Of a stretch of 56,426 nt of DNA, positions 1 through 56,426 are shown piece after piece. The stretch is from a virus. Position numbers and translations under genes: made by a program. The number at the start of each line of letters is the position of its first letter. Within the stretch, counting starts at the first letter, position 1. A model generated the notes under the pieces. The model did no database searches, was not told the DNA's origin, and worked only from the letters and a program-made list of their open reading frames with translations. The stretch is from the IMG/VR virus record IMGVR_UViG_3300045733_000287, positions 1 to 56,426 of that record. The stretch is one strand, 5' to 3'.

Positions 1-127
1 TGAAACCTTTTGTGGCTCTGGTATGCCTGTGAGGGCAATATTTTTAAGTATGTAACTTACATCTTTCATTTAGTCCCTGTTAATCCAACGCATCAAATTT
101 ATGAACAATAAATAACATATCCGAATA
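1..127. repeat. Exact 127-bp direct repeat, copy 1 (haplotype junction)
   Basis: These bases are identical to 54009-54135; the match starts at the first base of the window and ends where the two following sequences split (T at 128 versus A at 54136). It covers part of the structured leader of the early operon and its -7 promoter box (here 94-101). The exact length and position suggest a shared node between two assembly paths rather than a biological terminal repeat, because 127 is a common maximum k-mer of de Bruijn assemblers. No gene lies in 1-138. Confidence 0.95.
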
Positions 128-138
128 TTTTTAAACAT

Positions 139-2004
139 TTATTTCAAAAATAAACCCGCTTTATTGTAAAGTCTTTTATTTGCTATGTCACAATATTCTG
201 AAATCAATTCCGATAGAATGAAATTAAAGCCTTCATTCGTTGCTGAAAGCGCAGCAGGACCTGACCCGCCAAACGGATCATAAGTTAAGCCTCCTTTTGG
301 TGTTACAAGTCTCTGCAGGTATTGAATTAATTTTATAGGTTTAACTGTCGGGTGAAAATTTTGTGAAGACCTGTTTGTTCCATCGCCTTGAAACGATCCG
401 GGGTTTTGGGTACCACTTGACCAGATCATAGGTTTTGTCTGAAACTGATGTAACCCATCATTCCGTTCACCCCTGTCAGCTTTCGCAATGTAAAAGAACC
501 TCGAGGCCCCGCCTTTGTCGTCATAGAAAGTATCACCGTCATCGCCTCTTTGAGCATAGTCACCGTAGATGCCTTTTGATTTACCACTATGTCCTGATTT
601 GACTTTCGCAAACGCTCCGGCTTCGGGTACCTGTTTATCAAGTTCAACTGCAGTAAACTCATCGAGAATTATATTTGCAGGAAAACGACCAATAGTCATA
701 AAGTCAGTTGATTTCTTCATATTATTACCAAATCCGCTGTCACCACAATTCATTCCACTCCCCCCTTCTTTGTCATATTCTCTTGGTTCTGTTGTCCTAC
801 TTACTTCAACCCTGCACCCATCAATATTAATTCCACCTGTACCCCATTTTAAGACATTCTGAGCAACGGTCTTTTCGCTTAATGGCTTTCGTGCTACACA
901 AATATGATTATGATGTGATTTTCCGTCCTCTTCCTGGAAGTTTTGAAGATCCGTTGATATAGCATTGACGTGAGCAGAAAGCATTTGGATGTTCTTTAAT
1001 AACTCCATTGAGTCGAGTAAATATTTTACCACAGGAGGGACATTCGCATATTGTTCTTTTTGACAAATCTTTTCCTTTATGATGTAATTGAGAATGTCTT
1101 GCGACAAGTAACAATTCAAGGTTTTCGGGTCTATTATCTGATCTATTTGTGTTTTTGTGGTGGACATTTTCAGACGACAATAATTTTCTTCCGAGTATTT
1201 GCTCCATGATGATACGGTGTTCAAGTTGATACTCATTTCCGACTCGAATTGCGACATATCCATCTGATCTAATAAACCTGCCGACATACTGATGGCTTCT
1301 TCTGCAGTCCATTGAACAATACCTAACGCCTCGCTTAATTCTTTTGGGCTTAACTTGAAATTCTTTTCCGCAACATTCACATTTAACAGTAACCATAATT
1401 TAAGTTTTAATACATATAGGCTCATGCAAATACTATGCCAATATTGTATATCTGTAAGGGGTTTTTGCGCAACGGTTATTATTTCATGTGCGGGCTTTAA
1501 ACCGGTACCCCAGCCGGACCAATAAGTGGCCGGATAAGTGGCCGGATAAGTGGCCGGACGTTCTTTGCCTCCATCAAACATTGATTTTTTACCCTGCTTT
1601 TGAGAAGTCCAAGTCTGTTCTCCTTTGTCATTAAGAATATTTTCTCTTTTTACGCCTGCCTGTTTGTCAATAGCCTTGCTAATATCTAATGACTTCGGGA
1701 ATCCCGACCCGTAGAGCCACAGAATTGAATCTCTTATTTCAAATCCTGCATCTTCAATAGCGCAAACCATACGGTGTGATGTCCGGGTACCACCAAAAGC
1801 AAGTAAGTACCCGCCGGGCTTTAATACCCTTAAACACTCCTTCCAAAGATCTACATTATAAGCAATGCCGGAGTTATCCCATTTTTTACCCATAAATCCA
1901 AGTTCATACGGAGGATCTGTTACTATTGAATCAACAAAATTATCCGGCATTCGTTTCATGGTTTCCCTGCAATCTTCATTATATATTTTATTCAGTTCTA
2001 TCAT
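139..2004 (-). CDS. Beta-class DNA methyltransferase interrupted by an in-frame HNH insertion
   Basis: This is probably an N6-adenine or N4-cytosine DNA methyltransferase. The catalytic DPPY motif is at residues 30-33 and the AdoMet-binding DPFGGSG at 576-582, the permuted order of beta-class enzymes. Family-typical blocks WGTGGINIDGCR (387-398) and GRFPANIILDE (439-449) lie between them. At 621 residues it is longer than usual because about residues 184-367 are an insertion. Another frame of that insertion encodes an HNH protein (908-1396), yet this frame stays open through it. The flanks of the insertion are similar (ITVAQKPL at 176-183, ICVARKPL at 368-375). A PATY triplet at 150-161 comes from a 12-bp DNA repeat. 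Its start overlaps the end of the VRR-NUC gene by 4 bases. It is present only in haplotype A. Whether the read-through protein is active is unknown. Confidence 0.85.
   Translation of the reverse strand: MIELNKIYNEDCRETMKRMPDNFVDSIVTDPPYELGFMGKKWDNSGIAYNVDLWKECLRVLKPGGYLLAFGGTRTSHRMVCAIEDAGFEIRDSILWLYGSGFPKSLDISKAIDKQAGVKRENILNDKGEQTWTSQKQGKKSMFDGGKERPATYPATYPATYWSGWGTGLKPAHEIITVAQKPLTDIQYWHSICMSLYVLKLKLWLLLNVNVAEKNFKLSPKELSEALGIVQWTAEEAISMSAGLLDQMDMSQFESEMSINLNTVSSWSKYSEENYCRLKMSTTKTQIDQIIDPKTLNCYLSQDILNYIIKEKICQKEQYANVPPVVKYLLDSMELLKNIQMLSAHVNAISTDLQNFQEEDGKSHHNHICVARKPLSEKTVAQNVLKWGTGGINIDGCRVEVSRTTEPREYDKEGGSGMNCGDSGFGNNMKKSTDFMTIGRFPANIILDEFTAVELDKQVPEAGAFAKVKSGHSGKSKGIYGDYAQRGDDGDTFYDDKGGASRFFYIAKADRGERNDGLHQFQTKPMIWSSGTQNPGSFQGDGTNRSSQNFHPTVKPIKLIQYLQRLVTPKGGLTYDPFGGSGPAALSATNEGFNFILSELISEYCDIANKRLYNKAGLFLK
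908..1396 (-). CDS. HNH endonuclease nested inside the methyltransferase gene
   Basis: A 162-residue HNH-family endonuclease, probably a selfish homing-type enzyme. An N-terminal zinc-binding segment has cysteines at 6, 8, 9, 27 and 31. The HNH core runs over about 58-95 with HH at 79-80 and the conserved NRPENLEL at 88-95. A second cysteine cluster lies at 117-122 and 141-145. It is read from the same strand as the methyltransferase but in a different frame (offset two bases) and lies wholly inside it. The insertion has only about 90 bp outside this ORF, too little for a group I intron core. I see no clear ribosome binding site, so its expression route is uncertain. Confidence 0.8.
   Translation of the reverse strand: MVTVKCECCGKEFQVKPKRIKRGVRYCSMDCRRSHQYVGRFIRSDGYVAIRVGNEYQLEHRIIMEQILGRKLLSSENVHHKNTNRSDNRPENLELLLVARHSQLHHKGKDLSKRTICECPSCGKIFTRLNGVIKEHPNAFCSRQCYINGSSKLPGRGRKITS
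1522..1557. repeat. Three tandem copies of a 12-bp unit in the methyltransferase gene
   Basis: The unit ATAAGTGGCCGG occurs three times in a row. On the minus strand it encodes the PATY triplet of the methyltransferase. Copy-number change would add or remove four residues without shifting the frame. Confidence 0.9.
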
Positions 2005-2378
2005 TTCAAGTATTCGTCAATGATTTTCCGGCATTCGTCAAACCCGACACCGAATTCCGCCCTATAACCTTTCTCCCGGAGTGCCTGTATCATCTCAAAC
2101 TGCTCGGTTAAATGTGGTGTCGCCGGTTGTAATGACTTATTGAGTAGTTTCGTCCCTTCGACTTTGATCTCAATGAACAGACCGTGCCAGAAGCTTCTTG
2201 GTGAAGCAATAAACAGATCAGGATATCCTTTATTTCCCTGTATCGCTTTCATTTTGCCTGACTGAGCTTTTGATAAATTCAGCCCGGCATAATCGAAATG
2301 ATAGATTACCTTCGGAAATTGATATCTCAAATACATGGCTATTGCCTGACAGATTTGATATTCACGGTCGTTTCTCAT
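2001..2378 (-). CDS. VRR-NUC family nuclease (haplotype A)
   Basis: A 125-residue stand-alone VRR-NUC protein of the PD-(D/E)XK superfamily; phage members act on branched or flap DNA during replication and recombination. The core is visible: GYPDLFI gives Asp54, and FIEIK gives Glu70 and Lys72, followed by a helix with EQFEMIQALREKGY typical of the family C-terminus. It overlaps the ART-like gene upstream by 4 bases and the methyltransferase downstream by 4 bases, so the three are probably translationally coupled. Haplotype B carries a homologue at 54147-54548 with extra residues between the Asp and the Glu-x-Lys. Confidence 0.85.
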   Translation of the reverse strand: MRNDREYQICQAIAMYLRYQFPKVIYHFDYAGLNLSKAQSGKMKAIQGNKGYPDLFIASPRSFWHGLFIEIKVEGTKLLNKSLQPATPHLTEQFEMIQALREKGYRAEFGVGFDECRKIIDEYLK

Positions 2379-2896
2379 AGTATAATTATTTCTTCCTCAT
2401 TATTTCTATTTATATAGGCAAATACCTGATCTTTTTTGACTTGCTTACTTATTACAACATCTTTAGAATAACTGGCTTTGTACCATTCAGCATAGCTTTT
2501 TGATAATGTATATGATAATCCATTATCCTTTTCACTGTTTGTAGCACGATAAACAATAAGGTTTTCTGGTAATTCTCTGATTTTATTATGTTCTTCAGGA
2601 GTTGAAAAATAATATTGTTCTTTCCTATTTGACTTCATTAATAGTCTGAATAAGTCATTATACTCAATAGACCCGCAAAGAACCCAGGCAGTACGGAGAA
2701 GTTCCCAGTATCTTTCATCTGATAAATTCTTTTTATTTTTTACAAATATCTCAAGAACCTCTGTCTGGCTGTGATTTACATCCCAAGCATGAATTAACTT
2801 CTTTGAAATTTTAGAATCCTTTATTAACACCTTTTGTTTTAATTTAGGATACCGCCGTGTCATTGGTATATGAACATTATTACCTTCAGTCGTCAT
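2375..2896 (-). CDS. ADP-ribosyltransferase-like protein
   Basis: A 173-residue protein of unproven function. The C-terminal half has features of the R-S-E class of ADP-ribosyltransferases: VYRA with Arg117 after a strand, GLSYTLSKSYAEWY (127-139) as an S-T-S-like segment followed by a helix, and NEEEIII with Glu167-x-Glu169 near the end. The N-terminal half is helical and charged, with no motif I recognise. If active it could modify a host protein, as T4 Alt and ModA do. It is found only in haplotype A, where it takes the place that a PAPS-reductase-like gene holds in haplotype B. The fold assignment rests on motif order only. Confidence 0.45.
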   Translation of the reverse strand: MTTEGNNVHIPMTRRYPKLKQKVLIKDSKISKKLIHAWDVNHSQTEVLEIFVKNKKNLSDERYWELLRTAWVLCGSIEYNDLFRLLMKSNRKEQYYFSTPEEHNKIRELPENLIVYRATNSEKDNGLSYTLSKSYAEWYKASYSKDVVISKQVKKDQVFAYINRNNEEEIIIL

Positions 2897-2917
2897 CTTA
2901 TTAGTTTTGAATTAACT

Positions 2918-3058
2918 CTATCTAAAATAATCAATGACCTGCTCGGTTTCCTCCGCTTCAGCTTCATGCGGATCAGGAATATTATCGCTCTGATCGGTTC
3001 GGAAAATACTTTCAACTGAAAATTCATCTTCATCTGTTTCGGGATAATGTTTGTTCAC
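2918..3058 (-). CDS. Small acidic protein (haplotype A)
   Basis: About 46 residues, rich in Asp and Glu, ending EETEQVIDYFR. I chose the GTG at 3058 because the homologous haplotype B gene (55387-55530) begins with an ATG at nearly the same place, and similarity starts at the KHYPETDEDEF block. An ATG at 3085 is the alternative and would deepen the overlap with the upstream gene. No recognised domain; conservation in both haplotypes supports it as real. Confidence 0.6.
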   Translation of the reverse strand: MNKHYPETDEDEFSVESIFRTDQSDNIPDPHEAEAEETEQVIDYFR

Positions 3059-3560
3059 GGTTAAGGCACTTTTGCATAAGCTCATACATTCCAATTTTCT
3101 CATGATTCTTCCAGTTAGTACGTTTATTTTCCTCATACATTTCAGTTAATTTATCCCAGTTTTCAACCAAATTAGACCATTCAGGACAAAGTTTTTTCAA
3201 TCGGAATAATGATGTTTTCCATTCCGGAACTGCCTGTAAGAGTTTATAACACCTGCTAAAATCATCAGGATCGTAAGGATAATTAATCGGGAATTTTTCT
3301 GTACCCACTAAACAATTCCACATAGTTTTTGAACTCATACCATGTTCCCCGTTTGCCATCCACCACATTGCTTTTTCTTTTACCCCTTGCGATTGGTCAA
3401 CTTCTGGCTCTTTCCATGTCGGTGGACAGTCTTCGTGTAGTTTATCAAAAGCCTTTATCTTTTTTCCTAACTCATCAACAGGAATAGGATATTGTATTTT
3501 ATGCGATTCCCCACAATTCAAACAGAATAATTTTTCATTTCTTATTGTTGTGTTTTTCAT
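3030..3560 (-). CDS. Conserved phage protein of unknown function
   Basis: This 176-residue protein begins with a CxxC pair (FCLNCGES), possibly metal binding. Its central block reads WWMANGEHGMSSKTMWNCL followed by YPYDPDDFSRCYKLL and a Trp-rich LTEMYEE segment. That pattern belongs to a widespread family in phages and prophages (WxxNGExGxSSxT ... HPxDPxDFxRC) whose job is not known. The gene is absent from haplotype B, where the small acidic gene follows the 129-residue gene directly. Its 3' end overlaps the acidic gene. Confidence 0.7.
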   Translation of the reverse strand: MKNTTIRNEKLFCLNCGESHKIQYPIPVDELGKKIKAFDKLHEDCPPTWKEPEVDQSQGVKEKAMWWMANGEHGMSSKTMWNCLVGTEKFPINYPYDPDDFSRCYKLLQAVPEWKTSLFRLKKLCPEWSNLVENWDKLTEMYEENKRTNWKNHEKIGMYELMQKCLNREQTLSRNR

Positions 3561-3587
3561 CTCATTATAGTTTTGATAGGAATTTTA

Positions 3588-3977
3588 TTAATACCCCGTT
3601 TTTGTTAGTCTCAACTCTTCTTTCTCATAGGAAAGCAATGACCGTAAACCGTCAATCTGATGCACGCAACCTCTGTTAATCCTTTCAATCCAGTCAACTA
3701 TGAAGGATTCTTCCTCACAGATCGAATCTAACAGGGCATTTTGGACAGTTGCAGACAGATGTGATGCTTTGGCTATCTTAATTATTGTCCTGTTTATTTC
3801 AAGGGTCTTTTTGCCTCTCAGGTCTTTCTTGGCTTGTGCCAACATTTGCCCGGAACGTGACATGTAACTCATCAGAGTAGATATTCTTTCCGTCATTTCT
3901 TCAGGATCGTTTGAAACAACAATATCTAAATATGACTGAATTGTTTCAGCCTCTTTTTTAATCTCATCTATATTCAT
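3588..3977 (-). CDS. Hypothetical helical protein (haplotype A)
   Basis: A 129-residue, mostly helical charged protein with no domain I recognise. A near-identical copy is in haplotype B (55532-55921) with only a few substitutions, so the protein is conserved while its DNA drifts. It starts 3 bases after the FtsK-like stop in both haplotypes, which suggests a shared role with the translocase. Confidence 0.75.
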   Translation of the reverse strand: MNIDEIKKEAETIQSYLDIVVSNDPEEMTERISTLMSYMSRSGQMLAQAKKDLRGKKTLEINRTIIKIAKASHLSATVQNALLDSICEEESFIVDWIERINRGCVHQIDGLRSLLSYEKEELRLTKTGY

Positions 3978-3979
3978 GG

Positions 3980-6058
3980 CTATTCTTTATAGAATCCCTG
4001 AAAACGAATGACATTCATATACTCCGGTGACTTAATAAGTCCATCACCACGTCCGTTAAGCGATTCTGCTCCCGGCTCATCAATCACAACCATTGAATCA
4101 ATATCTTTAGGGACCCTGAAACATACCTGCACTGGCAGGTTTACTTTTGCATCTCCCGTGATAACCTTTGTTGAAGCTCTCTGAGTAGCTGACATGATTC
4201 TAAAGCCACAGGAACGCCCCTTTTGCAGTAATACCCGCAGGTTTTCTTCCAGTGACTTATCGACACTCTTGACAACTCTCTTTGTCTTGGTGGCTCCATT
4301 GGCATATCTCCCAACAACCTCTTCACCGTAATTCTTCAGATCATTGCCCTTTCTGCTATTTGCAACAGCATCCGCGAACTCATCAAATACAACAAGGGTT
4401 TTTTTGTTGATGCCGTTCTTAACCCTGCTTTCCATTTCCTCTACAAGCATCATGATCTGAAGCTCAATTTCTTCTATTTCACAAACTACCTTAACCCCGG
4501 AGACTTTTGAATAGCCTTTAAATTCATGTTTAGGGTCGAAAATATAGACCTCATGCACTCCTGTTAATAAGGCATATTCAATTGTTGACCTCAGGAATAC
4601 CGATTTACCGGATCCGGTTGCACCACAAACTAAAATGTGCGGAGTTGAATGATTGTCGAGATCCCAAAAGATTGTTTGTCCGAAGTTATCAACACCGATA
4701 GGCAGCCCGTGACCATTAAGTTTTGAACCGTCCCAGACAAGTGTCGATGTGTTTTTCTTCCCTGACTCAATTACCAGGTAAGACTTCCCTTCATATACAA
4801 ACAAATCTTTGTTTATCCTGACATTTGAGACATTCAGGGCGTTTGCGATGTCAAGTTTATATCTCTGGATGGATGAGATTTGCACCCCTGCATTTATCTC
4901 AAGCAAATATGATGCACTGGAATAGCCGTCAAATATGTGTTGAACCTTTGCAATTATGCCAAAGGATCTGAGTATGTGTTCTATTTTTTCCTGGTTTGTC
5001 ATGTTTTTATTTGTGAAATCGTACGGTATAAATTCTTCTGTGAACTTTTTAAAGTTTCGAATGGTTGTCGGGGTTACGGAAGCCAGTGAGGAATCTCTGA
5101 TTTTCCTCATGCGCTCCCTGAGTAATGGCTTTTTATTCTCAGGTATGTTGAAATCTTCAACCTCTGCAATCATTGTTCTTGCCCAGAAATCATATAATTC
5201 AGCTTTATCTGAGAGGTTATCATTATCATTAATCATGTAAACATAATCCGGGTTCCCGACCGCCTCAATCATTCTCTTAAGTGGTTCATACAGCAATGCT
5301 TCATAAAGTCTCCTGGTGTCGGCATTCATCACAATCTTTGTTCTGATCATTTGCGGTGAACCATCTTTATTCTTTGATGATTTATTTTCGATTAACCAAA
5401 CCTCGTCAATCTTTTCGCCATATTTTTCTTCATACCCCAAAACATAGGTAATGGCTTGTTTTCCGCTTGTGAATTTTAGTTCTTTGTCATCGGTGAAAAT
5501 ACCTTTCGACTTATGATCTGTAATAACCCGTTTGCCATCGTTCGTTGTGAAAACAAGGTCCAGAACTAAATGGCAGGGCATTGGAATATCGACCCCGTTA
5601 ATTGTCAACCATGAGGTTATTGACTCTTCAACACTGATAACTTCTTTTATCTCATCGGTGTAAATATGAATCTGAGTTAAGAAATTATTAAGCAGTTTTG
5701 TAACTGTTTCCGTTGCTGCAATTTTGCACTCCTCAATTGTCGGAGTTGTTTTCATGATCTTCCAATAGTCTGCCCGGACATTATCAATATAAGCGTATGC
5801 AACTGTTTCAAGAGCGACCAAATCAGTTACGACACCCTCTTTAAGGTTTGAGAAATATAAACGAAGCGCAGCATGATAAGCCTGTCCGGCTATCGTTGTG
5901 GCAGAACTTTTGCCATAGCAATGATAAATATATTGCATCTCGAATGCTTTTTCATTGCCGGCAAAGGTTCTTGTTTTGGAATAAGACCAGGAGTCAATCA
6001 GATAGTTTGATAATAACTCCTCTTTTTGCTCCTGGCTTAAATCTTTGTACTTATTCAT
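3980..6058 (-). CDS. RecB-like nuclease fused to an FtsK/SpoIIIE-type DNA translocase
   Basis: A 692-residue two-part protein. The N-terminal half resembles the PD-(D/E)XK nucleases of the RecB/Cas4 group: His62 in AYHAAL, Asp167 in LVLDLVF, Asp181-x-Lys183 in ITDHKSK, then a Q-x-x-x-Y-like helix. The C-terminal half is an FtsK-like motor with Walker A GATGSGKS (479-486), Walker B LVVFDE (555-560), an FtsK-beta-like domain before it and the ATQR segment near the end. I start at the ATG at 6058 because the longer frame to 6211 would overlap the upstream gene by about 145 bases and adds a basic, unconserved stretch. It follows a candidate annealing protein, so it may act in phage recombination or in moving circular genomes. 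Confidence 0.85.
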   Translation of the reverse strand: MNKYKDLSQEQKEELLSNYLIDSWSYSKTRTFAGNEKAFEMQYIYHCYGKSSATTIAGQAYHAALRLYFSNLKEGVVTDLVALETVAYAYIDNVRADYWKIMKTTPTIEECKIAATETVTKLLNNFLTQIHIYTDEIKEVISVEESITSWLTINGVDIPMPCHLVLDLVFTTNDGKRVITDHKSKGIFTDDKELKFTSGKQAITYVLGYEEKYGEKIDEVWLIENKSSKNKDGSPQMIRTKIVMNADTRRLYEALLYEPLKRMIEAVGNPDYVYMINDNDNLSDKAELYDFWARTMIAEVEDFNIPENKKPLLRERMRKIRDSSLASVTPTTIRNFKKFTEEFIPYDFTNKNMTNQEKIEHILRSFGIIAKVQHIFDGYSSASYLLEINAGVQISSIQRYKLDIANALNVSNVRINKDLFVYEGKSYLVIESGKKNTSTLVWDGSKLNGHGLPIGVDNFGQTIFWDLDNHSTPHILVCGATGSGKSVFLRSTIEYALLTGVHEVYIFDPKHEFKGYSKVSGVKVVCEIEEIELQIMMLVEEMESRVKNGINKKTLVVFDEFADAVANSRKGNDLKNYGEEVVGRYANGATKTKRVVKSVDKSLEENLRVLLQKGRSCGFRIMSATQRASTKVITGDAKVNLPVQVCFRVPKDIDSMVVIDEPGAESLNGRGDGLIKSPEYMNVIRFQGFYKE

Positions 6059-6065
6059 TTCTGAA

Positions 6066-6944
6066 TTACAATAAAGTTGGTGATGTGGTTTTTGAATCTC
6101 CGGCCTGTTTGGTTTCGGATTTCTTTTCTTTGATATCTTTCTTTTTGTCACCAAGCTTCTCGTCATTTGTTTTAAGGGCTTCTTTTCTGGCTGCCTCAGT
6201 ATGTGCTGCAAAGGATTCTTTAACCGTTGTGGTGCCTTCCTTAATAGCAGTGGCGAGGGCTTTTAACTCAAAGCACTTCTCTTTATCCATTTCCTGAATA
6301 TTTTCAATTGCCAGGTAACTTAATAACTGATCTGTGGGAACAGCTAGTTTTGCATAATATTCAATCAATCTCTGTCTGACTTTTTCAAGATCCATACTCT
6401 TCCCCATTGCAACTGCCTTGACTTTTTCAATGACATTCTTTGTTACTGCTTTTGGGACCACTTTCAAAACAGCGTTCCTGAATGCAATTGCGCTGGCTGC
6501 ATTGCCGGTGACAACCTGCATATCTTCGCTGAATGTCTTCCCGAATCGGTCTGTAATTCTGCGTTTCACTTCAACGGAAACAGCGAGATTTGTTTCAAGG
6601 TCATGGCAAATACCCATTGCTGTGATAGTTTTGCCATCATTGCCAATGATCCTGGTTTGCACCCGCATGTTTCCCCATGCACCTGCAATAATTTCAGTCA
6701 TACGGACTGACAGACCTTCAATGATTGTATCCTCTTCGCCCGGTCTCCCTTTTCTCCGGAGTGCATAAAAGCAGTCTTCAGCGGTCTCTGTGTCCATTGT
6801 GGCGTATGTCTCAATCTGATTCAGTACATGCGACAAAACACGGGGATACTGTTTTGCAGTTGCGACCTGAATGTCTACTTCAGAGCGATTAAGTGCAGAT
6901 ACCATTTCCACACTTGAAACATTTGTTACTTCTTGGTTTTCCAT
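6066..6944 (-). CDS. Candidate single-strand annealing protein
   Basis: A 292-residue protein with a compact N-terminal two-thirds and a Lys/Glu-rich low-complexity tail (about 235-292). The block EGLSVRMTEIIAGAWGNMRV, then ATNLAVSVEVKR-like strands and GNAASAIAFRNAVLKVVPKA resemble phage proteins found beside RecB-like exonucleases, often proposed to be RecT- or Rad52-type annealing proteins. The position just before a RecB-like nuclease gene, 7 bases away, fits an exonuclease/annealing pair. I see no single decisive motif, so the role is an inference. Confidence 0.5.
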   Translation of the reverse strand: MENQEVTNVSSVEMVSALNRSEVDIQVATAKQYPRVLSHVLNQIETYATMDTETAEDCFYALRRKGRPGEEDTIIEGLSVRMTEIIAGAWGNMRVQTRIIGNDGKTITAMGICHDLETNLAVSVEVKRRITDRFGKTFSEDMQVVTGNAASAIAFRNAVLKVVPKAVTKNVIEKVKAVAMGKSMDLEKVRQRLIEYYAKLAVPTDQLLSYLAIENIQEMDKEKCFELKALATAIKEGTTTVKESFAAHTEAARKEALKTNDEKLGDKKKDIKEKKSETKQAGDSKTTSPTLL

Positions 6945-38500: not shown

Positions 38501-39958
38501 TTACTCCTCATTCTTAAACATTTGATGATAATGTTCCAGATATGCAGCAAGTCCGCAAAGACTATCCGCCGCATCATCTTCATTTTTTGAAGTCTTCAAA
38601 AGCTTACAGGCCTGAGCCATGAATCTTTGCAGATCAGGATTTGGATTCTCAGGAAAGTAAAAGAACAGCTTCACCAGTCCGGCATTAGCAAGTATCCGGG
38701 CCATCTTATTCTTTTTAGACTTCAATCCGAACACTTCAAGAGCTGGCATGAGCTCTCTGCAATGTTGTGCAAACCACGCCCCGAAACTATTCGTTTCAAT
38801 GGCTAAATGGCTTATATGATGAACCTTTACTTTATCCTGAGTCATCGGAAGGTATGCCGACAGTCCGAGTGTGCTGTCAAATATTGCATCAAATACATAA
38901 ACCCTGTTCATATTTGCATATACTCTCGCTATCGGACAGGCAAAGGCGTCAGTGCCCTCATCAGCAGGATCGACAAAGCCAATAGTGAAATACTCAACAT
39001 CGTCAGGAGGGAATTCTTTGTAGTAATGCAGACTGCTTACCGGAAATACCTTTGTTTCATCATCAGAAAGAGCAACGCAATGATAGTTTGCCTGAAAGAT
39101 CATCTTTGTCCGGCTGTCAACCTCCATTCTTTTTTTTAGCTTCAGATATGATTCTTTGCTTAATATGTCAGGACAAAGCATCTGATCCGTTTCAGCATTA
39201 TACACTGGCATTGATAATATATACCATTCTCCCGGTTCTGTTGTCTCAAGAATAACCTGCGGATCCTGCTCACCCCAAATGGTAGCACAGAATATCTCCT
39301 TTACATCGCCTCCGATAGCTGCGTTACGACTTGAAAACGTCCCGGACAGCCATACCCATACCTTTGACAGTGCGTTGTCAGAAAGTGCCATTTCCGCATC
39401 CTTGATAAGGTCATCCATTATCCTGATCGTTGCACCCTTACCGGTAACACCGCCACCAACACCTACACCGAGATAATTGAAATGTTGACCTTCTAAGGCC
39501 CACTTCTGAAAGCTCGCATTACCTTGTTTTATCTTTGTCGACGGGAATACATCGGAATAGACTGTTTGTGATTCGAGATTCTTAACCTCACTGATCCCAT
39601 CCCTGGTGTATCTGGAAAAGTCTGAAGCCTGAGCATCAGAGTGACTTGCTGTAATTATTCGCTCCTCGTTATTTTTGCCAAGTACCCATTTAGTGAAGTT
39701 TACAAGAGTCCTGCTTTTTCCGTGCTGTGGGGCCATGCGAATCATTAACTTATGATAAGGCATCCCGTCAGCCTTTAAAAGCTTATTGTAATAAAATGAC
39801 TCAAGGGTATTGCAGAGTATTCTAAGATGATCCCGGTCCTGTTTGTAGAATTCCGGTTCTAATAATTGACAGAAATCCCAGAAGTGATCCCGGGATTTAT
39901 CAATAGATTCCTCTTTAAGTAAGGTTTCAAGTTCAATTATTTCAACATCAGTCAGCAT
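38501..39958 (-). CDS. terL: Terminase large subunit
   Basis: 485 residues. ATPase motor: MAPQHGKSRTLV (Walker A type) near 73-84 and IRIMDDLI (Walker B) near 178-185. RNase-H-like nuclease: GFVDPADEGTDAFACP near 325-340, later ETNSFG and DDAADS (acidic residues). It packages DNA into the prohead by headful or site-specific cutting. Overlaps the small subunit by 11 bases. Placement far from the portal (separated by the plus-strand regulators) is unusual. Confidence 0.9.
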   Translation of the reverse strand: MLTDVEIIELETLLKEESIDKSRDHFWDFCQLLEPEFYKQDRDHLRILCNTLESFYYNKLLKADGMPYHKLMIRMAPQHGKSRTLVNFTKWVLGKNNEERIITASHSDAQASDFSRYTRDGISEVKNLESQTVYSDVFPSTKIKQGNASFQKWALEGQHFNYLGVGVGGGVTGKGATIRIMDDLIKDAEMALSDNALSKVWVWLSGTFSSRNAAIGGDVKEIFCATIWGEQDPQVILETTEPGEWYILSMPVYNAETDQMLCPDILSKESYLKLKKRMEVDSRTKMIFQANYHCVALSDDETKVFPVSSLHYYKEFPPDDVEYFTIGFVDPADEGTDAFACPIARVYANMNRVYVFDAIFDSTLGLSAYLPMTQDKVKVHHISHLAIETNSFGAWFAQHCRELMPALEVFGLKSKKNKMARILANAGLVKLFFYFPENPNPDLQRFMAQACKLLKTSKNEDDAADSLCGLAAYLEHYHQMFKNEE

Positions 39959-40646
39959 TCAGTTTTCTCTTTAACTGCTCTATGCGTAATTTCCGTTCTT
40001 CTGGGGTAGGTTGATATGTAGCTACCTCCCCTGAATGTTCTATTTTCTGAGGAGCATCATAACCTTGCATCTTTGAAATTGAGTCAAGGGCTTTCTGCTT
40101 GTCGTAAAGTTTAATCTTTACATACTTGACATCGTAAGGCGTTTTTACGAAATCTTCCTTATCGGGATCGTATTCAGAGAAGTATTTCCTTTCTGTCTTT
40201 GTGTCTATCTCTGCGATGCATTCTTTTTGTTCAGGGGTAAGGAGCTCAAATTGTTTTAACTCAATCCATGTATTATGCAAATGAGCTATTGAGGAAAAGG
40301 CTAATTTCAGATGTTCATTAAGAACTTTTGCCTTTGATATACCGCAAAGTTTTTCCAGATCCTTTTGAATATCAGCGCAATATTTCTGAATGTTATCTTT
40401 TGTTATCATTCTGGCGGAGTTTGCACGGGCTGAATTATCCGTTGATTTTGGATAAGCAAGCTTGTAAGCTCTTGTTGCGTTCCAATCAATCACATACTCT
40501 CTGCAAAATGCTTTCTGTTTCCCTGTTAATGGTTTGTTTTTTAGTAGTTTATCAGCCCTTTTGATAATCTTTTTCTTAGCCGATTTTGTTGAAGATAATG
40601 GCCTTGCTCTCTTAACAGATTTTATATTTATTTTTTTAACTGCCAT
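39948..40646 (-). CDS. terS: Terminase small subunit
   Basis: 232 residues from the ATG at 40646, which overlaps the upstream stop as TAATG; longer frames add an unlikely extension. The N-terminal 45 residues are strongly basic. Then LTGKQKAFCREYVIDWNATRAYKLAYPKS matches the Terminase_2-type DNA-binding helix-turn-helix, followed by a coiled coil and a charged end. It recognises the packaging site. Confidence 0.85.
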   Translation of the reverse strand: MAVKKINIKSVKRARPLSSTKSAKKKIIKRADKLLKNKPLTGKQKAFCREYVIDWNATRAYKLAYPKSTDNSARANSARMITKDNIQKYCADIQKDLEKLCGISKAKVLNEHLKLAFSSIAHLHNTWIELKQFELLTPEQKECIAEIDTKTERKYFSEYDPDKEDFVKTPYDVKYVKIKLYDKQKALDSISKMQGYDAPQKIEHSGEVATYQPTPEERKLRIEQLKRKLNAD

Positions 40647-41077
40647 TATGCTGCAATAAGTTTTGAATATAATTCTGGCTGGTCGGCAAAAAACCATTGA
40701 TAACCCCCTGCTTTTCTCCTCACATAATACCGCCCGTTTCTGTTATTTTTCTGTAACTTACAATGAATCACACAACAAATATTCCGACTACAAACCTTAA
40801 CCCCTTTCGATTTTAATATTCTGGCAGCAGTTACAGCACTATCAAAGGGATATAATTTACCATCCTTAATACCAACTATCGGAATACGATTTGCACCGGG
40901 TAAATGTTTATTACCTAAATGCCTGCCTAATTCCAGATACTTCTTAACCTTCCTTATTTTTCTTCCATCCATCCAGTCAATCATTGGAACGCCTTTATTG
41001 AATGGCTTGTGACCTTTTGGGAACCAGTTATGAAAACGCTTTGGCGGTGCTTCAATATTTAATTCATAATTCTCCAT
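40646..41077 (-). CDS. Putative NUMOD-like DNA-binding protein
   Basis: 143 residues. FPKGHKPFNKG is followed by VGIKDGKLYPFDSAVTAARI and KAGGYQWFF, the look of a NUMOD1-type helix-turn-helix module found in homing endonucleases and as stand-alone proteins upstream of terminases in Bacteroidetes phages. No HNH or GIY-YIG nuclease domain is visible. Starts in a TAATG overlap. Confidence 0.55.
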   Translation of the reverse strand: MENYELNIEAPPKRFHNWFPKGHKPFNKGVPMIDWMDGRKIRKVKKYLELGRHLGNKHLPGANRIPIVGIKDGKLYPFDSAVTAARILKSKGVKVCSRNICCVIHCKLQKNNRNGRYYVRRKAGGYQWFFADQPELYSKLIAA

Positions 41078-44272: not shown

Positions 44273-44558
44273 AAATTTCATCAGGAACGTCACCTACAAA
44301 GAATCGTATTACCCTCTCAACTTCTTCAAGGTTTTTGATATAAATACGTCCTTTGATAGTTTGTTCTTTATCAACCCTGATCATCTGAACTAAATGTGTT
44401 TCACAATCCCAATCCAGATATATTCTCTTTGTAAGGTTTCGGGTTACTAAAAACCAATCAAAACCGTTCTGTTTGAAAAATATATTATCTGATTCATCAC
44501 TTCTTTTGAATCCCAAATCAATGACATCCTGATAATTAATCTTTTCTTGTACTTCCAT
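44271..44558 (-). CDS. Small protein next to the PAPS-reductase-like gene
   Basis: 95 residues, mixed alpha/beta, with a DLGFKRSDESDNIFFK segment. It overlaps the end of the PAPS-reductase-like gene by 23 bases. Not recognised. Confidence 0.55.
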   Translation of the reverse strand: MEVQEKINYQDVIDLGFKRSDESDNIFFKQNGFDWFLVTRNLTKRIYLDWDCETHLVQMIRVDKEQTIKGRIYIKNLEEVERVIRFFVGDVPDEI

Positions 44559-45435
44559 TTGTCAAAATATTATAAGGGTTTATAACATCAAAAGGAAACA
44601 TTTTTTTAATAACCGTTTCGTAATCAATTTGAAATAACTTCTGACTTTTATGGTTTGCAATTGATAATTCACTGATCCACCAATAAAATGCCTCATAAGG
44701 ATTATTGAAATGTTTGCCAATACTCCCCCCCCCAGTTTTTCCTGCAATAATATTTTTATCTATTGCCTTAATGGTCGTGTAAACGAATCGTGGATACATT
44801 TTATATTCCTTAATTCTTTGTGCTTGTCTGCCTAAAGGACATCCAATACAACCTAACCGATGGAAACCTTTATCATAAAAATCTGGATAAATCAGTTTGT
44901 TTTTATGAATGTACGCCCAAATATCTTTAGTCGTCCAGTTCATTATTGGATAAGCATGAATTTTATCTTTAATCCTTGTGTCGCATGCCTCGGGTTCTTT
45001 TAATGCAAGCAACCGCCTCCCTCTGGCAGATATTCTATTGGATTTGCCTCGTCTAGAATATCGTATTTCTTCTTCTTTGCTTTCATCTATTCGGAGTCCT
45101 TCAAATGTTTTTGCACCTTTTCCGACATATTCTTTAAGATGCTGACAACAAAATCTATGTTGACGTGTTGGTAGTCCATATTTTTCAATCAACTCCCAAA
45201 ATGAATATATTGGTTGCATTATAGTTACTTCTGGAAAATTATTCCTGATAAATCCTATATGTCCGGGTGGATCAATAGTTGTGTTTTGATATGAATAGGA
45301 AAAATCAAGTCCTGACCTTTTGGCTAAATGCAATAGAACAATACTATCTTTCCCGCCAGAAAACTGAACAATATTTTCACGCCTATCATCATACAGACTG
45401 ATCATTGTTTTCAAACTTTGTTTTTCCAAATCCAT
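44536..45435 (-). CDS. PAPS-reductase-family (PP-loop) protein
   Basis: 299 residues with the PP-loop SGGKDS (26-31) and Cys pairs CC (96-97) and CxxC (196-199), as in the Fe-S group of the PAPS reductase / DndC-like family. Members act on sulfur or nucleotide activation; the phage versions lack a proven substrate. A second, different member occurs in haplotype B (54532-55365). A run of nine G (44725-44733) lies in the coding sequence. An enzymatic role in nucleotide or DNA modification is possible. Confidence 0.75.
   Translation of the reverse strand: MDLEKQSLKTMISLYDDRRENIVQFSGGKDSIVLLHLAKRSGLDFSYSYQNTTIDPPGHIGFIRNNFPEVTIMQPIYSFWELIEKYGLPTRQHRFCCQHLKEYVGKGAKTFEGLRIDESKEEEIRYSRRGKSNRISARGRRLLALKEPEACDTRIKDKIHAYPIMNWTTKDIWAYIHKNKLIYPDFYDKGFHRLGCIGCPLGRQAQRIKEYKMYPRFVYTTIKAIDKNIIAGKTGGGSIGKHFNNPYEAFYWWISELSIANHKSQKLFQIDYETVIKKMFPFDVINPYNILTNGSTRKD
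44725..44733. repeat. Nine-base G homopolymer in the PAPS-reductase-like gene
   Basis: Nine C on the plus strand (G on the coding strand) encode Gly residues near 233-237. Such tracts slip during replication and could switch the gene on and off by frameshift. Confidence 0.9.
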
Positions 45436-49369: not shown

Positions 49370-50308
49370 TTATTTTGACTTGTTGAAAAACTCACTAAAA
49401 GACTTATTTCCATATTCCCCTTTTGTTACTTTTATCATTTCAACAATAGTGTATTTCTTCTGCTTATTCTTAAGTCTGTTTGATACGAAGTCTTTTGTAC
49501 CGAATGAACAGGCTCCGGTAATTACTCTGTAACACATTATCGCATCCTCGAAAGAAAGAGAGTCAGTAAGTTTTAAGTGCTTATAATCATCTTTTGTCCT
49601 GTTGCTGATCTTGAACATCAAATCGGACTTTGCTTCTTTTAATGTCTCTCCGTGCGACCACTTGCCATTACCATCAGTAACTAAATAAAAAATCTCTTTT
49701 TCTCCGATTTTGCGCACATGGTAAACATTGCCTCTGTGACTTATTACTTCTGTGAAAATTCCGTCAGCCAATAAGTATTTCCCGTCCTGCCATGATAATA
49801 AATATCCGCTTGGTAATTTTTTGTAAGTGGCTTTCAATTGGCTACTCAGGTAAAGAGAGCCGCCAACGGTAGGGTTGAATCCTTCAGGGATGCTTGTCAG
49901 TCTCCTCAGGTAAAGAGAGCCGCCAACGGTAGGGTTGAATCCTTCAGGGATGCTTGTCAGGCTACTCAGGTCAAGAGAGCCGCCAACGGTAGGGTTGAAT
50001 CCTTCAGGGATGCTTGTCAGGCTACTCAGGTCAAGAGAGCCGCCAACGGTAGGGTTGAATCCTTCAGGGATGCTTGTCAGGCTCCTCAGGTAAAGAGAGC
50101 CGCCAACGGTAGGGTTGAATCCTTCAGGGATGCTTGTCAGTCTCCTCAGGTAAAGAGAGCCGCCAACGGTAGGGTTGAAGCCCTCAGGGATTGATGTCAG
50201 TCTCCTCAGGTAAAGAGAGCCGCCAACTTTTTCTTTGCCGTAAAATTGAGCGATTGTGATATTTGCTCTACTGCAAAAATCTTTAATTAATTGTGTTGCT
50301 TTTTTCAT
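49370..50308 (-). CDS. Repeat protein with seven GGSLYLRxLTSIPEGFNPTV units
   Basis: 312 residues. The N-terminus (1-30) is followed by about seven 20-residue leucine-rich-like repeats and a globular C-terminal domain with ADGIFTEVISHRGNVYHVRK and ITGACSFGTKDF, a form seen in phage proteins of unknown role. The repeats are almost identical in DNA, so the array is recent. Leader motif AAAACCGAATAAT precedes the ATG. Repeat surfaces of this type usually bind proteins. Confidence 0.7.
   Translation of the reverse strand: MKKATQLIKDFCSRANITIAQFYGKEKVGGSLYLRRLTSIPEGFNPTVGGSLYLRRLTSIPEGFNPTVGGSLYLRSLTSIPEGFNPTVGGSLDLSSLTSIPEGFNPTVGGSLDLSSLTSIPEGFNPTVGGSLYLRRLTSIPEGFNPTVGGSLYLSSQLKATYKKLPSGYLLSWQDGKYLLADGIFTEVISHRGNVYHVRKIGEKEIFYLVTDGNGKWSHGETLKEAKSDLMFKISNRTKDDYKHLKLTDSLSFEDAIMCYRVITGACSFGTKDFVSNRLKNKQKKYTIVEMIKVTKGEYGNKSFSEFFNKSK
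49845..50227. repeat. 60-bp tandem repeat array
   Basis: Six full 60-bp units plus a partial one, each differing by a few bases. The unit encodes the 20-residue repeat of the 49370-50308 protein. Length variation by slippage or recombination is expected. Confidence 0.95.
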
Positions 50309-51239: not shown

Positions 51240-51619
51240 GATATTGATTTGATTAAATTTTCTTCTTCATATTCAAATAGGCTGACAACATAACATTCCA
51301 TAGTTTCAATTCTTTCGGGTTTACAGGTTTGGCTGAGAATAAAGTCAGCGGAGATTTCAAATACAGTCAGGTCCGTATAATTTCGATAACACCACTCCTG
51401 AATTCTTCCGTATTTTTCACCCGTCAAAGGATGTGCATGAACCACTTCATAAATGCACTCTATCACTCCATTTTTATAACAAGCAACATCAGGGACAAAT
51501 ATCATTTTGCCCTCAAAACAAAACGGCTTTTCAACCTCGCCATTAACCCATGATGCGAGTATCTTTACTGCGCTCTCATGATAGCCTGATTCGTTTTTCT
51601 TAAAACGGGGCTTCATCAT
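51236..51619 (-). CDS. PD-(D/E)XK-like (CoiA-like) nuclease candidate
   Basis: About 127 residues from the ATG at 51619 (51637 and 51616 are alternatives). The order His (HESAVKILASW), Asp (VPDVACYKNG) and Glu (IYEVVHAHPLTGEK) fits a CoiA-like restriction-type nuclease fold, a weak but reasonable match. It overlaps the primase-helicase stop by about 20 bases. Confidence 0.5.
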   Translation of the reverse strand: MMKPRFKKNESGYHESAVKILASWVNGEVEKPFCFEGKMIFVPDVACYKNGVIECIYEVVHAHPLTGEKYGRIQEWCYRNYTDLTVFEISADFILSQTCKPERIETMECYVVSLFEYEEENLIKSIS

Positions 51620-53336
51620 CACTTTTACCTGATTCATAAAAATCTATTGTTTGTGGAATTGAAATTTCTTTTTGATTTAATGCCAGCCAGTTGCTTGAAT
51701 CATTTCCGGCCTGATTAAACCTGCCGGTCTCGTAATCATAATTCAATGATATAATTCCCTGCTTCCCTAGATGTTTATATTTAATTTTCTGGAAATAAAC
51801 ATTGACTTCATTTAACATTACATTTTCGTCTGTTGTCTTTCTGTGAACCGTAATGCCATAATCAGTCTTATTATAGAAATTTGCAGATCCGGAAATATCA
51901 TAAAGGCTCGGTACTTCAATTTTGCCGTCAACCTTATTCATTTTTTTCGGGTGTGCCACTAAGAAAATTAGCACATTATTGAATTTTGCAAATTGGATGA
52001 TCTGATCTAAGAACCTGCTTATATATTGAGTTTCAGAATCAGTGTATTTGTGTTCTAATTTGTTATAAGGATCTATAACCAAAACCTTAACCCCTCTTGT
52101 TTTTACCAATATCCGGGCAGAATCCAATATGCTTTTAACTGTGAAATCTTCTTCATTAAGTATATAAAAGAAGTTATTCCGGATATAATCATAAGCCATA
52201 TCCCATTCTAATTCATTGGTTTTGCTCTGGCTGAATTTTTTACCTATCAGTTTTTCAAACAGTTTGGCATAATGAAATTTCAAAGGATAGTTTTCCGGAG
52301 TAAAAAATGCAGCTTTCCACCCATGTTTAATATTTAGTTTAGTAACTATATAATCAACAAACTCCGACTTACCTGATGCGGGTATTCCTGTGACTATTGC
52401 CAGTCGTGAAGTCTCCCAACTTATCTGTTCATCTATAATTTTTTGATCTATTTTACTCCCTTCCTGGATTCCCTGTTCATAAAGATTCCGGATATCAGCA
52501 TATAAACTGTTTGTTTCAATTATTCCCTTTACCGGAACCGGAATAGCATTTGTAATAACATCTTTTATCCCGTCCCCGTATTTCTGAAGATATTCATTTG
52601 CATCCTTACAATCTTTGAATGATACAACATAACAGCGTTCCGGTCCAAGTCTCCGGATTAATTCCCCTTTTAACTCAATACCTTTTGTGTCCTGATCTGT
52701 TGCAATGAAAATCTTTTTGATTCCGGAAAACATTTCAATACATGAATCCAGGTATTCAAGATTCTTGTTTGCCCCATTTGGAACTGACATAGTATTATCA
52801 AACCCTGCTTGTATTAAGGTAAGTGCATCTATTTCACCCTCTACAATTATAACTTCATCAAACTTTGTAAGGCAATTAATATTCCAGAAAATAAGTTCAG
52901 CTCCGGAAACTAATTTAAAAGACTTTTGCGGACCCCTGAATTTTATATTGATTAGTTTGTCATTAAAGAAATAAGGGAAACAAATTACTGGAACATTTTT
53001 ACTAAATTGAGGCATAAATTCAACATCAGAATAAACCCGCATTTTAACAAGTGTACTCTGATTAATCATTCTACCTTCAAAATATTTAACTGCTTTATCT
53101 GTAAGTTCTGTTTTATTGGACCATTCAGGGTAAATATATTCTTTTGCTTCATGTGGACGGTATTCAAAAAAGGCTGCCATACAATTATGGCAATAACCCC
53201 GGTTATTCTGTTTATCCCATGACAGACATTTATCTGTTTTCTTTTTTCTTAAATGTGAACATTCCGGACAAAGGCTGGTTGATTTGTCGGGTTCATAATT
53301 ATATATTTGCTTTGTGACTGATGATTGAATTTTCAT
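51600..53336 (-). CDS. Primase-helicase
   Basis: 578 residues in the T7 gp4/Twinkle arrangement. A zinc-binding N-terminus has Cys 23, 26, 49 and 52. A TOPRIM domain shows VEGEID (165-170) and ATDQD (212-216). The C-terminal RecA-like helicase has Walker A GIPASGKS (317-324) and Walker B VLVIDPYN, with VAHPKK as a sensor. It primes and unwinds DNA at the replication fork. It overlaps the winged-helix gene upstream by ATGA and is the central replication protein of the operon. Confidence 0.9.
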   Translation of the reverse strand: MKIQSSVTKQIYNYEPDKSTSLCPECSHLRKKKTDKCLSWDKQNNRGYCHNCMAAFFEYRPHEAKEYIYPEWSNKTELTDKAVKYFEGRMINQSTLVKMRVYSDVEFMPQFSKNVPVICFPYFFNDKLINIKFRGPQKSFKLVSGAELIFWNINCLTKFDEVIIVEGEIDALTLIQAGFDNTMSVPNGANKNLEYLDSCIEMFSGIKKIFIATDQDTKGIELKGELIRRLGPERCYVVSFKDCKDANEYLQKYGDGIKDVITNAIPVPVKGIIETNSLYADIRNLYEQGIQEGSKIDQKIIDEQISWETSRLAIVTGIPASGKSEFVDYIVTKLNIKHGWKAAFFTPENYPLKFHYAKLFEKLIGKKFSQSKTNELEWDMAYDYIRNNFFYILNEEDFTVKSILDSARILVKTRGVKVLVIDPYNKLEHKYTDSETQYISRFLDQIIQFAKFNNVLIFLVAHPKKMNKVDGKIEVPSLYDISGSANFYNKTDYGITVHRKTTDENVMLNEVNVYFQKIKYKHLGKQGIISLNYDYETGRFNQAGNDSSNWLALNQKEISIPQTIDFYESGKSDDEAPF

Positions 53337-53953
53337 GGCATCATAAGTTTTTCAGGTTTTTTCTTATTCCGCTGTTCCCATGTTCTTATTGCTGATTGCC
53401 AGTCTTTCATTTTATCCTTACCTACCTTCCACCCCCTTGTTTGATACCAGTCATAGAAATAATTTGCATCTATTCCGTTATTTCTTTCTTTACAATATTT
53501 TGTAATCAAATAAATTGGAGGAGGTATAATATTCTTTTCATTCTTAATCATTCTTAATCCTTCTTGTTTGGGGGTAGTGTCCGTTTCCTCTCCGTTTACT
53601 TTGCGTTTACCTTTTGTTTCTTTTGCGTTTACCTCTATTTGGTAATTATCGTAATTACATACCGTTATCCGTGTACTAATTTGAATACTTTCGTATAGTA
53701 ACATGGAGTCTTTTTGTAATAACTCAAAAAACTCCTTAACTGTTTTCTTTGTTACATTCCAATCCCTTGCCCATGTTTCTAATGACCGCACGCTTTGCCC
53801 TCTTTTACACTCAATAAGATTGCCTTTAATTAATACTTTTGTATCAGCATGATTAACGGATAATAAAATATCTATCCACCACTGAAATCTATTCTGTGAC
53901 TTCCAAATCCAATGATCTTTGATTTTACGGTGTATCTTAATCCAGCCTTCCAT
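53333..53953 (-). CDS. Winged-helix replication protein, initiator-like
   Basis: 206 residues from the ATG at 53953 (a start at 53980 would run into the structured leader). MEGWIKIHRKIKDHWIWKS and RGQSVRSLETWARDWN are typical of phage replication initiator or DnaD-like proteins with a winged-helix N-domain; the C-terminal part (DWYQTRGWKVGKDKMKDWQSAIRTWE) fits DnaD-like helices. It is the first gene of the early operon and probably recruits the primase-helicase. Confidence 0.65.
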   Translation of the reverse strand: MEGWIKIHRKIKDHWIWKSQNRFQWWIDILLSVNHADTKVLIKGNLIECKRGQSVRSLETWARDWNVTKKTVKEFFELLQKDSMLLYESIQISTRITVCNYDNYQIEVNAKETKGKRKVNGEETDTTPKQEGLRMIKNEKNIIPPPIYLITKYCKERNNGIDANYFYDWYQTRGWKVGKDKMKDWQSAIRTWEQRNKKKPEKLMMP

Positions 53954-53992
53954 GTTAAATAAGAATGCCCCCACAAGCAAAAGCCACTAAGG

Positions 53993-54089
53993 AACAGGGA
54001 CTAGCTGTTGAAACCTTTTGTGGCTCTGGTATGCCTGTGAGGGCAATATTTTTAAGTATGTAACTTACATCTTTCATTTAGTCCCTGTT
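53993..54089 (-). ncRNA. Structured leader RNA of the early operon
   Basis: On the minus strand AACAGGGACTA (54079-54089) and TAGTCCCTGTT (53993-54003) form a perfect 11-bp closing stem. Inside, ATGTA-AGT-TACAT and TGCC-CTCACA-GGCA can form hairpins, giving a multi-branch shape. It starts next to the likely transcription start and ends 40 bases before the initiator ATG. It could be a riboswitch or thermosensor-like leader, or part of an origin. I do not recognise a named family. The 53954-54146 gap holds only this element and its promoter. Confidence 0.5.
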
Positions 54090-54135
54090 AATCCAACGCA
54101 TCAAATTTATGAACAATAAATAACATATCCGAATA
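54009..54135. repeat. Exact 127-bp direct repeat, copy 2 (haplotype junction)
   Basis: Identical to bases 1-127. To its right, haplotype B begins; following copy 1, haplotype A begins. It includes most of the leader RNA and the early promoter box. Confidence 0.95.
54102..54109 (-). promoter_or_regulatory. Promoter -7 box of the early operon
   Basis: TAAATTTG on the minus strand, a perfect TAnnTTTG, with a start expected near 54095, just before the closing stem of the leader RNA. No clear -33 TTG. It also lies at 94-101 in copy 1 of the repeat. Confidence 0.5.
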
Positions 54136-54146
54136 ATATTAAACTT

Positions 54147-55365: not shown

Positions 55366-55386
55366 CTTTTCAGTTTTGAATTAACC

Positions 55387-55530
55387 CTATCTAAAATAAT
55401 CAATGACCTGCTCGGTTTTCTCCGCTTCAGCTTCATGCGGATCAGGAATAATATCGCTTTGATCGGTTCGGAAAATACTTTCAATAGAAAATTCATCTTC
55501 ATCTGTTTCGGGATAATGTTTGTGAGTCAT
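55387..55530 (-). CDS. Small acidic protein (haplotype B)
   Basis: 47 residues beginning MTHKHYPETDEDEF and ending TEQVIDYFR. Homologue of 2918-3058. Starts one base after the stop of the 129-residue gene, a clean operon junction. Confidence 0.65.
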   Translation of the reverse strand: MTHKHYPETDEDEFSIESIFRTDQSDIIPDPHEAEAEKTEQVIDYFR

Positions 55531-55531
55531 T

Positions 55532-55921: not shown

Positions 55922-55924
55922 AAT

Positions 55925-56426
55925 TTACTCTTTATAGAATCCCTGGAACCGGATGACATTCATGTATTCAGGTGACTTAATTAAACCATCTCCACGTCCA
56001 TTAAGTGATTCAGCTCCCGGCTCGTCAATCACAACCATTGAGTCAATATCTTTAGGGACCCTGAAACATACCTGCACCGGCAGGTTTACTTTTGCATCTC
56101 CGGTAATAACTTTCGTTGAAGCTCTCTGAGTAGCAGACATGATTCTGAAACCACAAGAGCGGCCTTTCTGAAGTAATACTCTGAGGTTTTCTTCCAGGGA
56201 CTTATCGACACTTTTAACTACTCTCTTTGTTTTTGTAGCTCCATTAGCATACTTCCCTACAACTTCTTCACCGTAATTCTTCAGGTCATTGCCCTTTCTG
56301 GAATTAGCAACGGCATCCGCGAACTCATCGAATACAACAAGAGTCTTTTTGTTGATACCATTCTTAACCCTGCTTTCCATTTCAACAACCATCATCATTA
56401 TATGAAGCTCTATTTCTTCTATATCA
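55925..56426 (-). CDS. FtsK/SpoIIIE-type translocase, C-terminal part (haplotype B, cut by window end)
   Basis: Only the last 166 codons are in the window; the gene continues past the right edge. The visible part is almost the same protein as the end of 3980-6058 (LVVFDEFADAV Walker B, ATQRAST), while the DNA differs at many third positions. Whether the RecB-like half is also present cannot be seen. Confidence 0.8.
   Translation of the reverse strand, partial: DIEEIELHIMMMVVEMESRVKNGINKKTLVVFDEFADAVANSRKGNDLKNYGEEVVGKYANGATKTKRVVKSVDKSLEENLRVLLQKGRSCGFRIMSATQRASTKVITGDAKVNLPVQVCFRVPKDIDSMVVIDEPGAESLNGRGDGLIKSPEYMNVIRFQGFYKE

Follow-up and report, generated by a model that had tools for sequence, protein, structure and literature searches.

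Annealing-type recombination drives the mosaicism of phages and underlies recombineering, a technology for which, to our knowledge, few tools exist in Bacteroidota. The phage exonucleases known to us from pairs with annealing proteins (SSAPs), namely lambda Exo, RecE and YqaJ, work without a motor. Rings of FtsK alpha-beta subunits travel on dsDNA; nuclease domains of the RecB type act at a DNA end, where they cut one of the two strands. Within the lambda Red pair, the C-terminus of Red-beta is required both for interaction with Red-alpha and for dsDNA recombination (PMC5052646), and in the HerA-NurA system the HAS barrels at the N-terminus of the HerA motor are the docking site of the nuclease NurA (PMC9960219). 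The fusion of a nuclease to a HerA/FtsK motor is not, as such, categorically new, since DndH provides a precedent (PMC10853773). The literature searched yielded no description of a phage SSAP pair with a motorised exonuclease, of YqaJ replacement by a nuclease-FtsK fusion, or of a tail common to its SSAPs; Iyer 2004, on FtsK-HerA, may mention such a fusion.

Architecture and distribution of the fused nuclease-translocase

The window analysed here covers positions 1 to 56,426 of the IMG/VR record IMGVR_UViG_3300045733_000287, from a phage of the Bacteroidota group. One of its genes had been described in a sequence-only reading as a RecB/Cas4-type nuclease joined to an FtsK motor, and this description was borne out by the open frame and by Pfam, PHROG and Foldseek comparisons (Table 1). 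The frame of 692 codons runs on the minus strand from 6058 to 3980 with no stop in the ORF check, and this single gene encodes a RecB/Cas4-like PD-(D/E)XK nuclease and, C-terminal to it, the alpha and beta domains of an FtsK motor. Residues 351-601 are spanned by two Pfam models, FtsK_SpoIIIE with 43.1 bits against a cutoff of 24 and FtsK_alpha with 37.2 bits against one of 22.9, and the motor aligns with solved FtsK motors (E 3e-24). PHROG places the motor in phrog_1358, which it lists in the category 'moron, auxiliary metabolic gene and host takeover'. In the nuclease half, residues 24-222 match the PHROG exonuclease families 1218 (E 8e-9) and 69 (E 5e-8). Moreover, the homologue L071 gives an above-cutoff match to Pfam PDDEXK_1 at residues 23-241, with FtsK_alpha on the same chain.

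Structure prediction, which had been proposed as a check, was run with AF2 on a seven-sequence alignment and gave a model that is weak overall (mean pLDDT 64), with a nuclease core (residues ~51-150 and 171-250) mostly above 70. In Foldseek searches the motor half of this model matched FtsK on a dsDNA end (6t8o), and the nuclease half matched Cas4-family ACE1, MGME1, AdnAB and, weakly, RecE. The protein stops after the beta domain, with no gamma (KOPS-reading) domain detected by Pfam, and has no membrane segment (maximum 19-residue hydropathy 1.22). Its score against the NCBIfam FtsK equivalog is 87 bits versus a cutoff of 1566, and NCBIfam yielded no equivalog. The four-Cys Fe-S set of the Cas4/AddB type is absent; residues 1-345 contain three Cys, which are conserved in 4, 69 and 71 of 94 homologues. 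As to the YqaJ/lambda-exo/RecE family, Pfam YqaJ gave no match on the fusion and an iterated YqaJ profile hit none of the fusion ORFs, alongside the weak structural match to RecE noted above.

A domain search for the same fusion in other phages had been suggested, together with a check that two genes had not been joined by a frameshift or a misassembly. A single-protein scan recovered six IMG/VR contigs with a full-length fusion (58-75% identity), and alignment scans found the fusion at 79 viral loci and at 18 loci on genome contigs, approximately 97 in all. Nearly all of these encode the protein as a single ORF of 666-735 aa, and this number of fused homologous loci rules out an assembly or frameshift artefact. 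The exceptions are L070, which is split, L071, which reaches 967 aa with an intein, and L073 and L080, which are cut by contig ends. The L071 intein (gene at 3784-6687) contains an HNH domain and interrupts Walker A of the FtsK motor (GATG^SGKS).

The genome contigs include those of Dysgonomonas, Prevotella, Chitinophaga, Tenacibaculum, Chryseobacterium and Pedobacter; single matches titled Sedimentibacter MAG and Gracilibacteria MAG may be binning errors. When the phylum of L090 was sampled, the fusion was present in one of 296 whole genomes, that of L090 itself, and it is therefore not a chromosomal housekeeping gene. At the thresholds used, the nuclease half was unmatched among 50,697 phage records and among plasmid records, and no record of a cultured phage or plasmid contained a fusion that aligned over 80% of the query. 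Matches to the motor were found in FtsK/SpoIIIE-like proteins of mycobacteriophage and Bacillus phage (phrog_1358), at 24-36% identity.

Conservation was assessed on 94 aligned fusion proteins, with a minimum pairwise identity of 34% and a median of 57%. Nuclease residues G58, Y61, H62, D167, D181, K183 and Q201 are present in all 94, and H182 and Y205 in 93. In the motor, G479, G484, K485 and E560 are invariant, G482 is nearly so, and D559 is kept in 92 of the 94. The two halves coevolve, with a correlation between their pairwise distances of 0.86 (0.76 when the three deepest sequences are left out).

Table 1. Coordinates of the fusion gene, its domains and motifs, and associated features of the window.
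Feature	Position	Strand	Basis or remark
Fused nuclease-FtsK translocase, 692 aa	3980..6058	-	Open frame; Pfam/PHROG domains; ~97 fused homologous loci
PD-(D/E)XK (RecB/Cas4-like) nuclease domain, residues ~24-241	5336..5989	-	PHROG 1218/69; PDDEXK_1 on L071; Foldseek
Nuclease motifs G58..Y61-H62, D167, D181-H182-K183, Q201..Y205			
FtsK alpha domain, residues 351-431	4766..5008	-	Pfam PF17854
FtsK beta (RecA-like) motor, residues ~445-690	3989..4726	-	Pfam PF01580; FtsK structures 2ius and 6t8o
Walker A GATGSGKS, residues 479-486	4601-4624	-	
Walker B of motor, ending at D559-E560			
Partner SSAP (phrog_3657), predicted RAD52 fold	6066..6944	-	PHROG 3657 E 3e-57; AF2 mean pLDDT 82
C-terminal tail of window partner, ...SPTLL-COOH, variant of ...[LM]P	6069..6083	-	
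VRR-NUC/Holliday-junction-resolvase-like protein, same module	2001..2378	-	PHROG 5702 E 2e-8; Pfam VRR_NUC sub-threshold
Toprim + DnaB-like primase-helicase	51600..53336	-	Pfam DnaB_C and Toprim_2; downstream of fusion if genome circular
DnaD-like helicase loader	53333..53980	-	PHROG 2514 E 1e-30
Partial second fusion copy, residues 527-692, 97% identical	55925..56426	-	In diverged wrap-around copy of window start

Elsewhere in the window, the VRR-NUC, DnaD-type loader and Toprim-DnaB genes fit recombination-dependent replication. Positions 54009-56426 repeat positions 1-4481 in diverged form (83-98% DNA identity), which suggests a circular genome of ~54 kb that was closed by a co-occurring relative. 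The second copy is without the methyltransferase gene at 139-2004, and in it a PAPS-reductase-like gene (54532-55365) replaces 2375-2896; a further PAPS-reductase-like gene lies at 44536-45435. Inside the methyltransferase frame, in another reading frame, is a 162-aa HNH-like frame (908-1396), and methylase matches are found at both ends of 139-2004, as if an insertion had interrupted the gene. Tandem 60-bp repeats, 93-96% alike, occupy 49840-50227 within a 312-aa ORF (49370-50308) that has no PHROG or Pfam match.

The partner SSAPs and their C-terminal tail

Directly upstream of the fusion in the window sits a gene of phrog_3657, a family whose function is not annotated in PHROG. With Foldseek alone the phrog_3657 model gave no significant match. 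Re-scoring with VIA-align placed RAD52 (Z 7.7) and Mgm101 best, at Z values of 6-7.7 that chance could also produce, but human RAD52 fills eight of the top nine rows and yeast Mgm101 the ninth; 80alpha Sak and Red-beta rank lower. The comparison of models is thus suggestive of a RAD52 fold.

Across the loci, the upstream slot is occupied by at least nine SSAP-like groups of mutually non-aligning proteins. The phrog_3657 group fills it 25 times (window included), RecT 18, Sak4-like proteins 17, ERF 7, Bet-like and Rad52-like proteins 5 each, and a second RecT group 2; groups without a database family account for 11 and 3, plus one singleton, and phrog_561 RecT is also among the partner types. 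No database family assignment was found for the SSAP groups clusters 3, 7 and L022. The slot proteins of L021, L039 and L022 share the tail described below, belong to no known family and are candidate new SSAP families. The partner gene usually overlaps the start of the fusion gene, by ATGA or TAATG. In L027, the SSAP gene is separated from the fusion and lies 1.6 kb upstream, and in L031 a NUMOD4/HNH homing-endonuclease-like gene (5477-6004) stands between a RecT-type SSAP and the fusion. When SSAP types were placed on the fusion tree, 36 changes were counted among 90 rows (the least possible being 9 and the shuffled mean 57). Loci L024 and L036 have near-identical fusions and different SSAPs. 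Such swaps are the pattern expected of an exchangeable functional partner.

As a converse check, members related to three SSAP families were collected whether or not the fusion lay nearby. The fusion was found downstream of the SSAP at 19 of these loci and a YqaJ-like nuclease at 132, and no locus of this set contained both; thus the fusion stands in for the lambda-exo-type nuclease. At the other 77 loci neither nuclease was recognised nearby by the profiles used, which is a caveat to this reading of the slot. Pfam YqaJ (PF09588) scored above cutoff in L107, L108 and L117. The fusion therefore occupies the slot of a YqaJ/lambda-exo-type exonuclease, and the two are mutually exclusive.

The non-homologous SSAPs that lie beside the fusion converge on the C-terminus ...[LM]P-COOH, with variants [LM][LMKA], and a (D/E)KK..(L/M)(K/R) stretch often precedes it. 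Among Sak4-like proteins, [LM]P ends 14 of 16 sequences with the fusion versus 0 of 54 without; the corresponding figures are 10/18 versus 0/72 for RecT and 6/6 versus 0/64 for ERF, so that none of the 190 fusion-less relatives of these families ends in this way. Since relatives are not independent of one another, tree-independent pairs were also counted, on a tree that excluded the tail residues; the tail goes with the fusion in ~9 of these pairs and the opposite in 0. Among 925 further ORFs of these loci, [LM]P is the ending of just 7, two of which are the separated SSAPs of L027 and L031.

There are exceptions: the deep-branching fusions L074, L077 and L079 have SSAPs without the tail, and the window's own partner ends in the variant TLL. 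A search for a tail receptor, based on positions conserved in the main clade and changed in these three fusions, returned 28 scattered positions and no convincing patch. The RecT of L107, which has YqaJ downstream and is 78% identical to a fusion-linked RecT, still ends in LL. In L038 (5829-5989) the RecT frame is broken early by a TAG stop, shortly before the tail region, and the same frame beyond it ends in EEMP.

Taken together, the protein sequences suggest that the shared tail may be a docking peptide for the fusion. It is rather unlikely that the tail is instead left over from recombination breakpoints or from overlap between the two genes. The ATGA overlap does constrain the last codon in most pairs, and in the recent swap between L024 and L036 the shared DNA starts near the last two codons. 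However, the tail occurs at gene gaps of -1, +1, +2 and +3 and is written with seven Leu/Met codons and four Pro codons, and this variety of codons and spacings argues against a by-product of gene overlap. Moreover, the non-adjacent SSAPs of L027 and L031 carry it, and of 71 other ORFs that overlap a neighbour in this way, just 1 ends in [LM]P.

Proposed function of the fusion and its alternatives

The adjacency to SSAP genes and the occupation of the YqaJ/lambda-exo slot therefore indicate a role in DNA-end resection for annealing-type recombination. The guess in the sequence-only reading that the protein may process replicating phage DNA holds up. We consider it likely that the fusion is the exonuclease half of a phage SSAP plus exonuclease recombination system, with an FtsK-type dsDNA motor attached; in support of this, the nuclease and the motor have both kept their catalytic residues in the 94 proteins. 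The best reading is that it resects DNA ends with the help of ATP, in the manner of HerA-NurA or AddAB, taking over the role of lambda Exo/RecE and cooperating with a wide range of annealing proteins.

In the proposed mechanism the FtsK alpha and beta part would form a ring, presumably a hexamer, that threads onto a dsDNA end and travels inward on the duplex, powered by ATP. DNA leaving the N-terminal face of the ring would enter the nuclease domains, which would degrade one of the two strands (probably the 5' one) so that a 3' single strand is left. An annealing protein, putatively docked through its C-terminal [LM]P-type tail, would then be loaded on the 3' strand and would pair it with homologous DNA for repair or concatemer formation. 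Given the chemistry of the nuclease and FtsK families, and a nuclease placed N-terminally as NurA is on HerA, end-threading resection is the most economical model. The fuller version, a plug-and-socket system in which an FtsK ring bears a nuclease on every subunit and receives exchangeable SSAPs through a common [LM]P-COOH plug, has in our judgement about an even chance of being correct. If true, a motor-driven exonuclease of this kind would be the equivalent of HerA-NurA or AddAB in one compact polypeptide, the common tail would offer a directly testable rule pairing annealing proteins with nucleases, and the system may give a new recombineering tool for Bacteroidota.

The sequence-only reading had also raised the degradation of host DNA and the resolution of circular multimers; neither gained support, given an SSAP directly upstream in nearly every locus and the YqaJ/lambda-exo slot. 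A motor and a nuclease could in principle destroy host DNA, the one tracking along the host chromosome and the other degrading it for nucleotides or takeover, and the PHROG category of the motor does mention host takeover. This role is nevertheless very improbable, because the fusion is constantly coupled to changing SSAPs, replaces the YqaJ exonuclease in its slot and lies, in temperate-type phages and genome-resident loci, within a block of replication and recombination genes. Just as improbable is a defence effector of the DndH-like 'HerA/FtsK capture' type, in which the motor would intercept rival DNA for the nuclease to cut. DndH does combine a REase with a HerA/FtsK domain, in some versions with FtsK-alpha (PMC10853773), and the PADLOC models SspH and mad8 match the fusion. 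These matches are confined to the motor, however, with SspH spanning residues 453-688 only, and a defence system was set aside on this ground; the constant neighbour is an SSAP and not a dnd or ssp gene, and the nuclease half matches phage exonucleases.

The least probable of these roles is the resolution of dimers or concatemers, segregation or packaging, whereby FtsK-like pumping of phage DNA would be combined with trimming. FtsK acts in chromosome-dimer resolution, and some viral packaging ATPases belong to the FtsK-HerA superfamily, but the fusion has neither a gamma domain nor a membrane anchor and swaps with YqaJ exonucleases. The genome moreover encodes its own terminase subunits (38501-39958 and 39948-40697), and a packaging motor was set aside for that reason.

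Comparison with known systems

The resection machine proposed here shares its motor family with the FtsK/SpoIIIE-like proteins of mycobacteriophage and Bacillus phage (phrog_1358), from which it differs in its nuclease half, unmatched in the 50,697 phage records. In DndH and the 'HerA/FtsK capture' proteins, a nuclease and HerA/FtsK are similarly found in one chain, in some cases with FtsK-alpha (PMC10853773); unlike the fusion, these proteins belong to defence operons, contain a REase and an inactive DAM domain, and have no SSAP partner. AddAB, AdnAB and RecBCD resemble it in coupling a RecB-family nuclease to a motor and in resecting DNA ends, AdnAB being in addition a structural match, but their motors are SF1 ssDNA helicases, whereas that of the fusion would be a dsDNA FtsK ring.

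HerA-NurA is alike in combining a ring ATPase of the FtsK-HerA superfamily with a nuclease on the N-terminal side, for end resection in recombination (PMC9960219). In contrast to HerA, with its HAS barrel, the phage-encoded fusion has FtsK alpha and beta domains with FtsK_alpha on the N-terminal side, and its nuclease is of the PD-(D/E)XK type rather than NurA. The link is also covalent, hence one nuclease per motor subunit.

Finally, lambda Red (Exo-Beta) and RecE-RecT present the same gene arrangement, an exonuclease gene beside an SSAP in the same slot, with the families RecT, Bet and ERF in common, and there too it is the C-terminus of the SSAP that serves the nuclease partner (PMC5052646). 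The fusion differs in that it has an FtsK motor and 692 aa, compared with ~220-250, in that its nuclease is by profile RecB/Cas4-like and not of the YqaJ/lambda-exo type, and in that its SSAPs swap freely and share a short tail instead of a folded C-terminal domain.
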